From Gemmatimonadaceae bacterium (GTDB lineage Bacteria > Latescibacterota > UBA2968 > UBA8231), in NCBI GenBank assembly GCA_002726335.1, contig PBSR01000030.1, forward strand, positions 1 to 44,303: 44,303 bases of DNA. Direction: 5' to 3'. The notes below the pieces were generated by a model that saw only the letters and a program-made list of their open reading frames with translations, had not been told where the DNA came from and ran no database searches. Position numbers and translations under genes: made by a program. Shown here in pieces: positions 3,884-23,004 of this stretch (positions are counted from its first letter, which is position 1; each line of letters opens with the position of its first letter).

Positions 3884-5872
3884 TCATTCGTGCAGCCGTA
3901 ACGGCAGACGGATGATGACCTCCGTGCCGACGCCGACCTCCGAGTGTACCTGCATCTGTCCCCCGTGTTCATTCACGGTGTTCACATCGGCCACCAGGCC
4001 CATGCCCATCTTGACGCGGGCCTTCTGGCGGAAGGCAACATCGAACAACCCTTCCAGATGCTCGGCCGGGATCCCGGGGCCACTGTCGCCGACGCTGACA
4101 CAGGCCTGTTCGTCCTCCACCCAGGTGCGCAGGCGGATTGTGCCCGCACCGCCGTCGAGGGCCTGCAGGGCGTTGGTGATCAGGTGCATGAAGACCTGGT
4201 TGAGCCGGGCCGGTGCACACCAGATCGCTGGCAGCTCTCCGTATTGCCTCTCGACATCAATGTCGCCACCCAACTGTGAGTCCATGACGGCCACTGTGCT
4301 GTCGAGTCCCTGCTCGATACGGGCGATCTGCCATTCGGCCTCGTCCAGATCGGAGAAAGACTTGAAGCCGGACAGGACCGTACCCAAGCGGTCTGTCGCC
4401 GATTCGATGGCGACGTTGGAGCTGTCGATGGCCTGCAGCGCCGCTCCCGGAGGGATGTCACCTCGCAGCTTGCCGATGGCGCGTGACAGGGTGTCGCGAG
4501 CACTGCGGATGGTGCCCACGGGGCTGTTCATCTCGTGGACGATGCCGGCCACCAGGTGGGTCAGCGTCGACAGCTTGGCCGACTGCACCTCGCGTTCATG
4601 TTCGACGGCGCGAGCGGACAGGTCGCGGACCTGGGTCAGCTGCTCAGCCAGCTGATGGTTCGTGCGAGCCACCCCTCGTGCCAGGTAGACGGACATGCTG
4701 ACCACGAGCAGCAGCGTGCCGTAGATGTAAGGGAAGAACTCGATGGGGAATTCGAACACGTCGAGCTCCATCAACACCTGCAGCAGGCAACCGCTGGCGA
4801 ACAGGAACCATCCCGCCCGTACGATGCCGGCGCCTGGCGCGCCCCGGCTCAAACCAAGAACCACGACGCGTACGACGTCGACGAGGAACAGCAGGCAGAC
4901 GTAGTAGATGATGTCGAGGGGCAGCACGAGGGCCAGGGCGCCGACGACGGCGCCGATGGCGCACAAGGCCCAGAATAGCTTTGAAGGTCGCTCGAGAAAC
5001 TCGGTATACAGAAACAGGAGGCCGGACAGGGGAACGACGAGAAGGGACCACTTGAAGGTCAGTCGCAGCAGCGTGAAATCCCGTGGCTCGTGTAGGAAGG
5101 CCAGATGCAACGGAGCGTAGATGAGTACCGCCACGGAAAGGGCGAAGATGGCGTAGTAGAGGTGTCCGGATTGCTGGCGGTGGTAGAGGTACAGCAGCAG
5201 GTGGAAGATGCCGAAGGCGAGGGGGACGACGAACAACGTCTGCTGCTGCACGTGGCTGTAGATGAGCCACCGGGCCAGACCTTCGTACGCCGACACGTCG
5301 ACGAGGGCAGCGATGATTCCCGGTGGCTCGGGAGGATCGAACATGGCCAGGGTGTTGCGATTGGAATAGTGCATGGCGATGACATGCTCGCCGCCGGGCT
5401 CCAGGGGTAGCGGGACGACCTCTTTCAACTCACCGACCAGGTAGACCTGCTCCTCGGTCTGGCGGGAGGAGACCCGTCCGGAAGTGTCCAGTAACTGACC
5501 GTCGAAATAGACGGCGATCCCACCCTTGTGCCCGTAGAGCAGTCCCATCGTACCCACCGGCATGTCCGGGTCGAGGCGCAGGCGCAGACGGAACCAGCCC
5601 TCGCCCTGCCAGCCGATCCGTTCCCGTGTCTGCTCGGAGAGCATCGTGTCGAGGGAATCGAGAATCAGCCAGCCGCTGTCATCGAAGTCTCTGGCCGCCC
5701 AGGCTTCGGCGTGACCGGTATGGTAGCGCCAGCCAGCCAACAGCGGCAGAGCAGGGATGTCCAGCTCGTCGATGCCCTGTCGCGACACGGCGTCGGCCGG
5801 TATCAGAACCGGATCGGCCGACGCACCGACGGTTATGCCGACCACGAGGATGGCTGCCAGCAGCACGAACAT
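3884..5872 (-). CDS. Membrane sensor histidine kinase with 7TMR-DISM-type sensor
   Basis: Signal-transducing kinase of 662 residues. Residues 1-20 are a signal peptide. Residues 21-200 form an extracytoplasmic beta-rich domain with a GWFRLRL-type jelly-roll segment. Seven hydrophobic helices span about 205-400 (7TMR-DISM-like), followed by a short coiled coil. The dimerisation/phosphoacceptor box is VAGIVHEMNSP (H446). The ATPase has an N-box (ITNALQALDG, N567), G1 (DSGPG, about 596-600) and G2 (MGMGL). Extracellular domains of this class often bind carbohydrates or small ligands, which would fit the GH32 gene 44 bases downstream. That link is inference. No response regulator is in the window. 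The gene begins 8 bases after yaiI ends. Confidence 0.93.
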   Translation of the reverse strand: MFVLLAAILVVGITVGASADPVLIPADAVSRQGIDELDIPALPLLAGWRYHTGHAEAWAARDFDDSGWLILDSLDTMLSEQTRERIGWQGEGWFRLRLRLDPDMPVGTMGLLYGHKGGIAVYFDGQLLDTSGRVSSRQTEEQVYLVGELKEVVPLPLEPGGEHVIAMHYSNRNTLAMFDPPEPPGIIAALVDVSAYEGLARWLIYSHVQQQTLFVVPLAFGIFHLLLYLYHRQQSGHLYYAIFALSVAVLIYAPLHLAFLHEPRDFTLLRLTFKWSLLVVPLSGLLFLYTEFLERPSKLFWALCAIGAVVGALALVLPLDIIYYVCLLFLVDVVRVVVLGLSRGAPGAGIVRAGWFLFASGCLLQVLMELDVFEFPIEFFPYIYGTLLLVVSMSVYLARGVARTNHQLAEQLTQVRDLSARAVEHEREVQSAKLSTLTHLVAGIVHEMNSPVGTIRSARDTLSRAIGKLRGDIPPGAALQAIDSSNVAIESATDRLGTVLSGFKSFSDLDEAEWQIARIEQGLDSTVAVMDSQLGGDIDVERQYGELPAIWCAPARLNQVFMHLITNALQALDGGAGTIRLRTWVEDEQACVSVGDSGPGIPAEHLEGLFDVAFRQKARVKMGMGLVADVNTVNEHGGQMQVHSEVGVGTEVIIRLPLRLHE

Positions 5873-20054: not shown

Positions 20055-20944
20055 AACCGGGCGCGGCTGCAGGTTCAGCCTTTGAAGAGATCGTGCCGGG
20101 TGTCGTCGTCTACAGGCACAACTGGGCCGATGGCACCTGTGCCCTCGTCTTCGGCGACACCGGGGCAGCAGCCGTCGACGGCGGCGGTGATCCGGCCGAC
20201 GGACACGCCATGGCCACCCATCTGCGAGGTCGGGGTCACGAGCCCGACCGCCTGATTTACACCCACGGACACAGCGACCACGTATGGGGGGCAGCTGCCC
20301 TCGGCGAGGGCGAGGTCATCGCCCATGAATTGACGCCAGAGGTCATGGCTCGCCAGGTGCCGTCGTGGGCACAGCGCTGGCAGGTGAAGGAGGACGAGGC
20401 CAGGGCGCGAGTACCATGGCCGACGGTGACGTTCTCCGATGAGCTGCAGGTGCATCTGGGGGGACGAACGTTGCGACTGCTGCGCACCCCCGGTCACAGC
20501 ATCGACGGGATCAGCGTGCTGGTGCAGGACTGCGGCGTCCTCCTCGCCGGAGACTGCGCCGCCACAGGAATCGTGCCGGCCCTGGGCGATGGCGACGGCC
20601 GCATCCTGGAGGCATCGCTGCGCTCCCTCGCAAACATGAACATCGACGTGCTGGTTCCCGGTCACGGTCCCGTCGTGCGTGGTGCTGAGGTAGGCGACTG
20701 GTTGCGTTGGGGGGCCGACTATCTGCTCGGTGTACGGCAGCGAGTCCGTGAGCAACTGTCAGCCGGGATCTCCGTGGCTGACGTGGCGGCCACCGTGCCA
20801 TATGAAGAATTCGTCGGTGATCGTCTGTCGCGAGATCGACATGGCATGCCCGACCGTCACGCCAGTGCCGTGCGCAAGATCATCGACGAAGAGCGGACGC
20901 GGATGCCGCAGCCGTTTGCTGACAGCATTCGGGGCGGCGTGTGA
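20036..20944 (+). CDS. Metallo-beta-lactamase-fold hydrolase
   Basis: A 302-residue protein with the complete di-metal motif set: THGHSDH (76-82), a later His in TPGHS, an Asp in LAGDC, and a final His in VPGHGP. This matches hydroxyacylglutathione hydrolase/lactonase-like members of the superfamily; the exact ester or thioester substrate cannot be told. The C-terminal ~90 residues are helical, as in ETHE/quorum-lactonase-like variants. The start is GTG at 20036, inside the end of the HDOD gene (19-base overlap). The stop overlaps the following GTG start by four bases, so the three genes are probably translated together. Confidence 0.9.
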   Translation: MHGVNLKPGAAAGSAFEEIVPGVVVYRHNWADGTCALVFGDTGAAAVDGGGDPADGHAMATHLRGRGHEPDRLIYTHGHSDHVWGAAALGEGEVIAHELTPEVMARQVPSWAQRWQVKEDEARARVPWPTVTFSDELQVHLGGRTLRLLRTPGHSIDGISVLVQDCGVLLAGDCAATGIVPALGDGDGRILEASLRSLANMNIDVLVPGHGPVVRGAEVGDWLRWGADYLLGVRQRVREQLSAGISVADVAATVPYEEFVGDRLSRDRHGMPDRHASAVRKIIDEERTRMPQPFADSIRGGV

Positions 20945-21975
20945 CAGGGGCGGCACTGCGCCTGGCCATCGTCGGCGTCGGCTGGGCCGGAACGAGGCAG
21001 ACCGAGAGCGTCGGGGAACTGGGGGACGGTACGCTCCAGGTCGTCTGCCTTGTCGATCCCGATGTCGACCACCTGACGGACCGAAGCAAGGTACTGGGCG
21101 TCGAACGCATCTGCTCCGACTTGCCGGAGATCCTCGCCGATCCCGACATCGATGCCGTATCCATCTGCAGCCCCCATCGGTTTCACTGTGAGCAGGCCGT
21201 GGCCGCCGCGGAGGCCGGCAAGCACATCCTCGTCGAAAAACCGATGTCCATGGATGTGGATGAGGCCACACGGATGATCGATGCGGCGTCCAAAGCCCAT
21301 GTGTGTCTGTATGTGGCCGAGAGTGCCACCTATCAGCCTGTAGCATCCTTTCTACGTGACGTTGTGCGCCAGGGCCGATGGATCGGTGAGCTGACCGCGG
21401 CCAGCGTGAGTGCCGGATTCCGGGCACCGGCGTACGGGTATCCGGATCGGCGCGCCTGGTTGGCTCAACCAGAACACGGTGGCACCGGGACCTGGGCCCT
21501 GCATGGAATCCACACCATCGCGCAGATGCGCTACGTCCTCGGTGAGGTCGCCGTGGTCTACGCGCATCAGCACCGAGCGGCTTCCTTCGAGCGTGATGAC
21601 GTGGAAGCCACGGTGAGTGCCACCCTTACGCTGGACTCCGGTCTGATGGTGCAACTGTTGCAGACGGCGGAAACGAAAATTCCACCCATGCTGGCCGGTT
21701 ACGTGTTACACGGGGATCGTGGAAGTCTGCACGCTGGTCCTGCCGGCTGTCGGATTTTCACTGACGAAGACCATGGAACCCTCGTCGATATCCCGGCTGC
21801 ACGACATTCGGAGCATGCCCTCGAGCTGGAGGCGTTTGCGGCGACAGTGGCAGGCGTCGAAGGCCCGACGACCGGTCTGTCCGAGCGGCGCAGTCTCGCC
21901 GTCGTGGAGGCAGGCTACGAGTCGATGCGCACGGGGTTGCCAGTGGATCTGGAACAGCGCTTCGGGGTTCTGTAG
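20941..21975 (+). CDS. Gfo/Idh/MocA family oxidoreductase
   Basis: A 344-residue NAD(P)-dependent sugar dehydrogenase-like protein. The Rossmann motif is IVGVGWAG (9-16), DAVSICSPHRFH follows, and the active-site lysine is in LVEKPMSMD. The C-terminal domain shows the WALHGIHTIAQMRYVLG segment expected at the substrate site. It starts with GTG in a GTGA overlap with the metallo-hydrolase gene. The pairing of a lactonase-like MBL hydrolase with a sugar dehydrogenase would fit oxidation of an aldose to a lactone and then hydrolysis; this is an inference from adjacency. A strong hairpin follows 24 bases after the stop. Confidence 0.92.
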   Translation: MTGAALRLAIVGVGWAGTRQTESVGELGDGTLQVVCLVDPDVDHLTDRSKVLGVERICSDLPEILADPDIDAVSICSPHRFHCEQAVAAAEAGKHILVEKPMSMDVDEATRMIDAASKAHVCLYVAESATYQPVASFLRDVVRQGRWIGELTAASVSAGFRAPAYGYPDRRAWLAQPEHGGTGTWALHGIHTIAQMRYVLGEVAVVYAHQHRAASFERDDVEATVSATLTLDSGLMVQLLQTAETKIPPMLAGYVLHGDRGSLHAGPAGCRIFTDEDHGTLVDIPAARHSEHALELEAFAATVAGVEGPTTGLSERRSLAVVEAGYESMRTGLPVDLEQRFGVL

Positions 21976-21998
21976 GGCGGAACGTCCTGATGGTGCCG

Positions 21999-22031
21999 GG
22001 ACGACCGGTCCACGGATGGGACCGGTCGTCC
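21999..22031 (+). terminator. Strong hairpin after the Gfo/Idh/MocA gene (terminator-like, weak T tract)
   Basis: A perfect 13-bp inverted repeat (21999-22011 with 22019-22031) around a 7-base loop starts 24 bases after the stop codon. The following bases TCTATGT give only a poor U-run, so it may be an intrinsic terminator of low efficiency or a 3'-end stabilising hairpin. Confidence 0.6.
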
Positions 22032-22034
22032 TCT

Positions 22035-22194
22035 ATGTCGTGTCTCAGAGATCCGTCAACATTCTGCCGCCGAGCCATCCGTGCTCACTGCGTTGCGCTC
22101 ACTCTGTGGGTCCACTGACCCACATCGATCGCGCGCCTTGTGAGCCCGGCGTCTCGACGCCAGAATTCGCCGACCTATCTCTGAGGCACGACAT
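22035..22194 (+). other. Structured 160-base element closed by an 18-bp inverted repeat (candidate ncRNA or MITE-like element)
   Basis: The ends, 22035-22052 and 22177-22194, are inverted repeats over all 18 positions. The single non-Watson-Crick pair is T22043 with G22186, which is a G-U pair in plus-strand RNA but an A-C mismatch in minus-strand RNA. Inside are further complementary segments: 22061-22066 with 22161-22166 (6 bp), 22097-22102 with 22140-22145 (6 bp), a hairpin of 8 bp with a 4-base loop at 22105-22124, and a 5-bp hairpin with a CTCG loop at 22148-22161, which competes with one base pair of the 6-bp helix. No ORF fits it. It could be a structured RNA read from the plus strand or a terminal-inverted-repeat element; I see no clear target-site duplication. 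I do not recognise a known family. Confidence 0.55.
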
Positions 22195-22201
22195 CTAGCT
22201 T

Positions 22202-22333
22202 TCAGCGGGGGATGGCGAAGAGATGCTCGGGGTCGGTGGCGACGGCATAGGCCACCGACAGAGCGAACACCCACCATAACGCACGCTGCAGGCCGTTGAC
22301 GGCACGCGTGTGATACAGATGGTTGGCCTTCAT
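22202..22333 (-). CDS. Putative 43-residue single-span membrane peptide
   Basis: An open frame of 43 codons starting with ATG at 22333, with GAGGAG about nine bases upstream. The product has a basic N-terminal part (MKANHLYHTR), a hydrophobic helix at about residues 18-33 (RALWWVFALSVAYAVA) and a short polar tail ending IPR. It is the downstream member of two tiny membrane ORFs on this strand and ends eight bases from the structured element. No family recognised; the good ribosome site and clean single helix argue for a real gene, but short frames in GC-rich DNA are common. Confidence 0.5.
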   Translation of the reverse strand: MKANHLYHTRAVNGLQRALWWVFALSVAYAVATDPEHLFAIPR

Positions 22334-22397
22334 GTCGCACTCCTCGAGTTCATGTGGTTTCTGTGGCACCCTCTTCGCTCCTGCAACGGGATCTTCT

Positions 22398-22499
22398 CTA
22401 GGAGAAGTAGCCGATGAAGGGGAAGACGAGGGTGACGATAAAGGTGACCACGCCGTATACCAGGGCCTGGTTCAGCAATTCTCGTCGCATCGTTTCCAT
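22398..22499 (-). CDS. Putative 33-residue single-span membrane peptide
   Basis: An ORF of 33 codons from ATG 22499, or 30 codons from the in-frame ATG at 22490. AGGAG directly precedes the first ATG and is better placed for the second (about 11 bases). The peptide has a charged start (MRRELLNQ) and a hydrophobic helix covering most of the rest (ALVYGVVTFIVTLVFPFIGYF). It resembles in shape the tiny accessory subunits of membrane complexes, but I recognise no family. It lies 64 bases upstream of the 43-residue ORF on the same strand. Confidence 0.5.
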   Translation of the reverse strand: METMRRELLNQALVYGVVTFIVTLVFPFIGYFS

Positions 22500-22542
22500 C
22501 TCTCCTGCGTTGGCGGCGAACTTCCATCGTTCGCCGGGTTAC

Positions 22543-22574
22543 AAAAAAGGGACCGTCCTGTGGAGGACGGTCCC
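22543..22574 (-). terminator. Intrinsic (rho-independent) terminator, minus strand
   Basis: A perfect 10-bp GC-rich stem (22549-22558 with 22565-22574), a 6-base loop, and on the minus strand a run of six T directly after the stem. It is the most canonical terminator in the window. It ends a minus-strand transcript coming from above 22574, where the only candidate gene is the 23-residue ORF at 22655-22726. Confidence 0.88.
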
Positions 22575-22654
22575 TGCGTCATCATATCGGATGATGAAGC
22601 CCGTCTACTCCGTCCCACTGCTGCGGGATCGGAGAGAGGGCGCTGAGTTCTGCG

Positions 22655-22726
22655 TCAGAACTCGATACCCACCTCGTCGATCACCGGAGCGATCTGTGAA
22701 GCGATACCCGTCAGGCGTTGAAACAC
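22655..22726 (-). CDS. Putative 23-residue peptide ahead of a strong terminator
   Basis: A GTG-started frame of 23 codons with AAGGAG seven bases upstream, product MFQRLTGIASQIAPVIDEV plus GIEF. The stop is about 80 bases before the perfect terminator on the same strand. A dedicated short transcript (ribosome site, peptide, terminator) is the simplest reading; it could be a small peptide gene, or an sRNA that happens to carry a frame. No family recognised. Confidence 0.4.
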   Translation of the reverse strand: MFQRLTGIASQIAPVIDEVGIEF

Positions 22727-22985
22727 GTCACGTCTCCTTCCCTGGGGATGCTTCTGTCTGCGACCTTTGGTGCAAGCTGCATCTCTGGTCTCCATTGTCG
22801 CCCGAAGGCGGCGCAAAGCATCCGTGAATCGAATGTGGCTGAAGCGAACGTTGGTTGGGCCCGCATATGCAAGGGGCGTGCCAGTGCCTATATCTATTAT
22901 GATAGACGGCGTTTTTCCGTCCACCCTTCGTCCGACTCCGTCAGTGGTGTTGAGTCGACGTAAAAGTGCAGACCGGATGTACACC
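22727..22985. other. Gene-free stretch with a possible minus-strand promoter
   Basis: No convincing ORF on either strand. It holds the most AT-rich patch of the area (22888-22905). On the minus strand TGGACG followed 16 bases later by CATAAT (between about 22896 and 22927) could be a sigma-70 promoter for the short transcript ending at the terminator near 22543. A small GACGG/CCGTC inverted repeat overlaps the spacer. Support is by eye only. Confidence 0.3.
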
Positions 22986-23004
22986 GGGTGCAAACCTTGC
23001 ACCC
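22986..23004. promoter_or_regulatory. Perfect 8-bp palindrome with 3-base spacer upstream of threonine aldolase
   Basis: GGGTGCAA, three bases, then TTGCACCC, ending 36 bases before the ATG at 23041. The symmetry and position suit a repressor operator or a short 5' UTR hairpin. No T tract follows, so it is not an intrinsic terminator. Confidence 0.45.

Follow-up and report, generated by a model that had tools for sequence, protein, structure and literature searches.

The palindrome at positions 22035 to 22194 raises the question of whether its strong fold reflects selection on an RNA or the symmetry of a piece of mobile DNA. A preliminary description of this locus had argued for selection on plus-strand RNA structure and had named a terminal-inverted-repeat (MITE-like) element as an alternative. 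The locus is analysed here within the whole available stretch of DNA (44,303 bases, referred to as the window). We consider it likely, with a probability of roughly 0.7 as judged from the sequence, that the palindrome is an orphan, non-autonomous MITE-like mobile element. It is thus probably ordinary in kind and not a novel RNA regulator. The features on which this reading is based are listed in Table 1.

Table 1. Features of the palindrome and its surroundings (window coordinates; a dot marks features without strand).
Feature	Position	Strand	Remarks
GFO/IDH/MocA oxidoreductase gene	20941..21975	+	upstream, directed towards the element
Perfect hairpin	21999..22031	.	13 bp, 7-base loop, immediately before left TCTA
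Left direct repeat TCTA	22032..22035	+	4 bp, putative target-site duplication
Putative MITE-like element	22036..22193	.	158 bp, imperfect palindrome along its whole length, TGTCGTG...CACGACA
Left terminal inverted repeat	22036..22052	+	17 bp, 16/17 positions match right repeat
Central hairpin TGTGGGTC/GACCCACA	22105..22124	.	4-base loop, close to palindrome axis
Right terminal inverted repeat	22177..22193	-	17 bp, partner of left repeat
Right direct repeat TCTA	22194..22197	+	4 bp, putative target-site duplication
Candidate small ORF	22202..22333	-	43 aa, convergent, GAGGAG before ATG; stops 4 bases past right TCTA

Extent and fold of the palindrome

The outer arms (22035-22052 and 22177-22194) are paired at 17 of 18 positions. 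At the remaining position, T/U faces G in the plus strand and A faces C in the minus strand. The closing helix with one plus-strand G-U pair that had been described initially was thus recovered, and so were the complementary blocks inside it, which are nested in the order given there (22061-22074/22153-22166, 22079-22088/22140-22149, and 22105-22112/22117-22124). The region 22035-22194 folds with a minimum free energy of -84.2 kcal/mol on the plus strand (z -8.55) and of -97.1 kcal/mol on the minus strand (z -9.70), and on neither strand did any of 200 shuffles fold as well. When the window was searched for 18-mer arm pairs with at most one mismatch within 300 bases, the palindrome ends were the sole case, and such pairs were absent from all 20 dinucleotide shuffles searched at the same settings. 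The earlier view that this helix with its hairpins is unlikely by chance therefore holds: the palindrome structure is real and beyond chance.

Raw energy is less telling. Among 559 plus-strand windows of 158 bases (step 79 bases), three fold to -84.0 kcal/mol or lower, compared to -83.1 kcal/mol for the 158-base unit; because the window is GC-rich, the arms and the z-score are better measures. One of the six reading frames is open across the full 158 bp, and the element is too short to house a transposase gene. A 9-base complementarity between 22011-22019 and 22075-22083 was set aside as being at about chance level (roughly 0.1 expected by our own estimate).

Selection on RNA does not follow from a strong fold and one wobble pair in a lone copy; before it is inferred, it is worth checking for a direct repeat at the flanks and for how the wobbles are distributed between the strands. 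When the two 79-base halves are aligned (81 columns, of which 77 are ungapped), 56 columns match. The differences comprise three that are G-U pairs on the plus strand, four that are G-U pairs on the minus strand, and 14 others. This absence of a strand preference fits symmetry at the DNA level. The wobble in the outer arms, which had been taken as a pointer to the plus strand, thus loses that meaning: neither strand is marked as the selected one, and it is the minus strand that folds more stably.

An intrinsic terminator consists of a hairpin followed by a T run, and such a run is absent after the helix on both strands (plus strand, CTAGCTTTC; minus strand, AGAGGACG). A terminator scan of 21800-23000 returned four sites, none of them inside the element. 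Rfam gave no match at the gathering score across the window, and for 21950-22260 it gave only two sub-threshold matches (best E 0.28, 17.6 bits compared to a cut-off of 45). The palindrome is thus not assigned to a known RNA family, in agreement with the preliminary description, which had found no named family with such a layout. No tRNA or tmRNA was found. With the minus strand folding better, the wobbles unbiased, no Rfam match at cut-off, and no relative found in which compensatory changes could be counted, the claim of selection on plus-strand RNA structure gains no support here.

Flanking direct repeats and gene context

Shifting the boundary inward by one base at each end yields a 158-bp unit with TG..CA ends and with TCTA flush on both sides. 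The window was scanned for units of 60-600 bases having 14-base inverted ends (at most one mismatch) and a direct repeat of 4-10 bp. The only match was 22036-22193, and the same scan returned nothing in five triplet shuffles. The direct repeat taken by itself is a modest signal: among 200,000 random 158-bp placements in the window, a direct repeat of at least 4 bases occurred in 1.1% at a fixed register and in 2.6% over three registers. The combination of a 4-bp direct repeat with TG..CA ends occurred in 0.014% of random placements, a figure which overstates the case because it is not conditioned on the ends already being inverted. Together, the TG..CA ends, the flush TCTA, and the inverted repeat make up a MITE-like anatomy with a putative 4-bp target duplication. 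The alternative offered in the preliminary description thereby gains support from the flanks, although only in part. That description had mentioned neither the TCTA repeats nor the separate hairpin at 21999-22031.

The element sits between convergent reading-frame ends and adjoins a dyad symmetry. This symmetry is the hairpin at 21999-22031, which starts 23 bases downstream of the oxidoreductase gene and is separated from the element by TCTA alone. It is terminator-like, without a T run. From its position, it is probably the 3' end of the oxidoreductase gene (a predicted function), and it is likely to be the target context of the insertion.

On the other side, the candidate small ORF is in a row with a second one on the minus strand (22398-22499, 33 aa). 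Purine-rich, ribosome-binding-like stretches are found upstream of both, and both products appear partly hydrophobic by eye. Neither ORF had a Pfam match at cut-off, the best being TM_PetC for the 33-aa ORF (E 0.062, 13.5 bits compared to 37.1). Upstream of both small ORFs on their strand is a strong intrinsic-terminator-like hairpin (22548-22575, minus strand, 12 pairs followed by TTTTT). It lies downstream of a possible 23-aa ORF with a GTG start (22655-22726), which is preceded by GGAG.

The oxidoreductase provides some taxonomic context. Among the best 120 of its 974 relatives, nine carry an organism name, and three of these (P0019, P0093, and P0119) are from Latescibacteria/Latescibacterota. 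The other named ones are from Planctomycetota, Gemmatimonadetes, Chloroflexi, Poribacteria, and Dehalococcoidia. The host probably belongs to Latescibacterota, although this is no more than a leaning. The relatives include P0001 and P0002, which are 99% and 79% identical to the oxidoreductase. No transposase was detected by Pfam or NCBIfam among the 31 distinct larger ORFs of the window that were searched.

Searches for copies and relatives

No second copy of the ends was found in the window at up to three mismatches. The whole element, compared by BLAST to plasmids and phages (E up to 1), gave only coding matches of 26-27 bases, which fall under an ATP-binding protein (five plasmids) and a primase (one phage). 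With plasmids as the target (E up to 10), the left end had no match and the right end had five weak ones; in the two of these that were examined (H7 and H8), four short end words were absent from the stretches inspected.

In IMG/VR, the end pattern matched four contigs once each, with the sequence after the match being identical in L001 and L004 and likewise in L002 and L003. When parts of L001 and L003 were scanned for inverted repeats, none of the matched ends was paired, and a two-ended pattern with 121-151 bases in between had no match. The IMG/VR loci for two of the flanking proteins were pattern matches and not relatives. In L003 (6998-7014, minus strand; the same sequence is present in L002), the 17-base left-end sequence occurs once and is followed by GTCC. 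In these viral contigs it is located between ORFs of at least 100 aa, and a scan of 3 kb revealed no inverted partner for it. This left-end match is probably due to chance.

The species genomes (84,980 according to the tool description, with contigs under 3,000 bases left out) contained a single match to the pattern TGTCGTGNCTCAGAGATNNGTC, in a MAG from Actinomycetota, and this pattern revealed no copy of the element. The match was rejected: it is inside a reading frame (a 301-aa minus-strand ORF, 4698-5603 of L005), and has no inverted partner in 4000-5600. As the pattern searches demand exact ends, they address close copies, and diverged relatives could escape. Comparison of predicted proteins with the six frames yielded 73 and 16 candidates, with no relative among them at E up to 1; this search has low power since frames of this kind are rarely reported by gene callers. 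The collections gave few end matches, and no partner IS was recognised at any of them. A search of the open-access literature found no paper on a miniature inverted-repeat element in Latescibacter.

Origin of the element and comparison with known systems

Insertion of a MITE-like element would account for this arrangement as follows. The enzyme would be a DDE transposase from a TG..CA family with 4-bp duplications, encoded elsewhere in the genome; after binding to the end repeats, it would have placed the element into TCTA, immediately downstream of the 3' hairpin of the upstream gene. The empty site expected under this model is the hairpin followed by TCTAGCTTTCAG. Candidate transposases would be IS3/IS407-like, IS21-like, or IS481-like. 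IS21 elements have TG..CA ends and generate a 4-bp duplication. IS3 and IS481 also end in TG..CA; for the IS407 subgroup of IS3, the duplication is given as 4 bp, and most IS481 elements are described as making 6-bp duplications (PMC10045372). Once inserted, the element would give rise to a long stable hairpin upon read-through from either side. This hairpin may affect both transcripts at their 3' ends, and a selected RNA function would be unnecessary.

The main rival is a selected structured RNA, either a two-way 3'-end structure common to the convergent transcripts or a small RNA, which would end or protect both messages together with the adjacent hairpin. The very stable fold on either strand is what such an RNA would show, and the location, with reading frames converging on it and a 13-bp hairpin immediately upstream, would suit it as well. 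We nevertheless consider it unlikely, given that neither strand has a T run after the helix, that the terminator scan found nothing inside the element, and that Rfam has no match at cut-off; moreover, flush TCTA repeats and TG..CA ends are not predicted by an RNA function. A REP/BIME-like or other host palindromic repeat that is not moved by a target-duplicating transposase (e.g., a RAYT-linked one) would agree with an intergenic palindrome adjoining a gene end. At 158 bp, the element is far longer than REPs, which are given as 20-40 bp (PMC3733652), it is flanked by a direct repeat, and the searches returned no evidence of multiple copies, so that this origin is very improbable.

That the locus is a chance hairpin cluster, or a decayed local inverted duplication without a mobile past, hardly deserves credence. 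Its single copy, as far as seen, would agree with such an origin, as would the match of 56 of 77 ungapped columns between the halves and the three windows that equal or beat its raw plus-strand energy; the end helix was nevertheless not reproduced in any of 20 shuffles, nor inverted ends with a direct repeat in any of five, and the z-scores of the fold are far from random. An integron attC site was set aside, as the element ends do not have the form of core sites.

The MITE-like reading is favoured by the sole unit with inverted ends and direct repeats in the window, by the balanced wobbles, and by the likeness to elements in the literature. Weighing against it are the lack of a second copy and of a partner transposase in the searched sets, and the fact that a 4-bp repeat alone arises by chance in 1-3% of cases. 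A more far-reaching version is unlikely: the element might be the founder of a new MITE family, palindromic along the whole length, whose members insert next to 3' hairpins where genes converge and then serve as two-way 3'-end structures of mRNAs, in a little-studied lineage (probably Latescibacterota). If it is a MITE, it would add to the cases in which gene ends are shaped by small mobile palindromes.

Bacterial MITEs are described as being about 100-200 bp long, with highly base-paired transcripts (PMC2229807). The element, with 158 bp and terminal inverted repeats, falls within this range. Non-autonomous derivatives of TG..CA insertion sequences (IS3/IS407, IS481) share its ends, and the duplication of the IS407 subgroup has the 4-bp length of the putative one here (PMC10045372); a matching parent IS or transposase was not found for the element. 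Correia/NEMIS elements resemble it by their long terminal inverted repeats (24 bp) and structured transcripts, but are from Neisseria and have TA termini instead of TG..CA ends (PMC2229807). ERIC (IRU, RU-1) is likewise a small intergenic MITE-like unit with an RNA that forms a long stem loop, but has TA termini and a 7-bp terminal inverted repeat, compared to TG..CA and 17 bp here (PMC2229807). YPAL (RU-2), which is about 168 bp long and abundant in Yersinia, differs in that its inverted repeats are internal rather than terminal and that its duplications range from 3 to 26 bp, compared to the one 4-bp repeat found here (PMC2229807). The likeness to YPAL, compared by description and not by sequence, is one of layout and not of membership: both are similar in length, not A+T-rich, palindromic, and intergenic, the target duplications of YPAL have a putative counterpart in TCTA, and the targets of YPAL span or adjoin dyad symmetry (PMC2229807), as does the TCTA next to the hairpin of the oxidoreductase gene.
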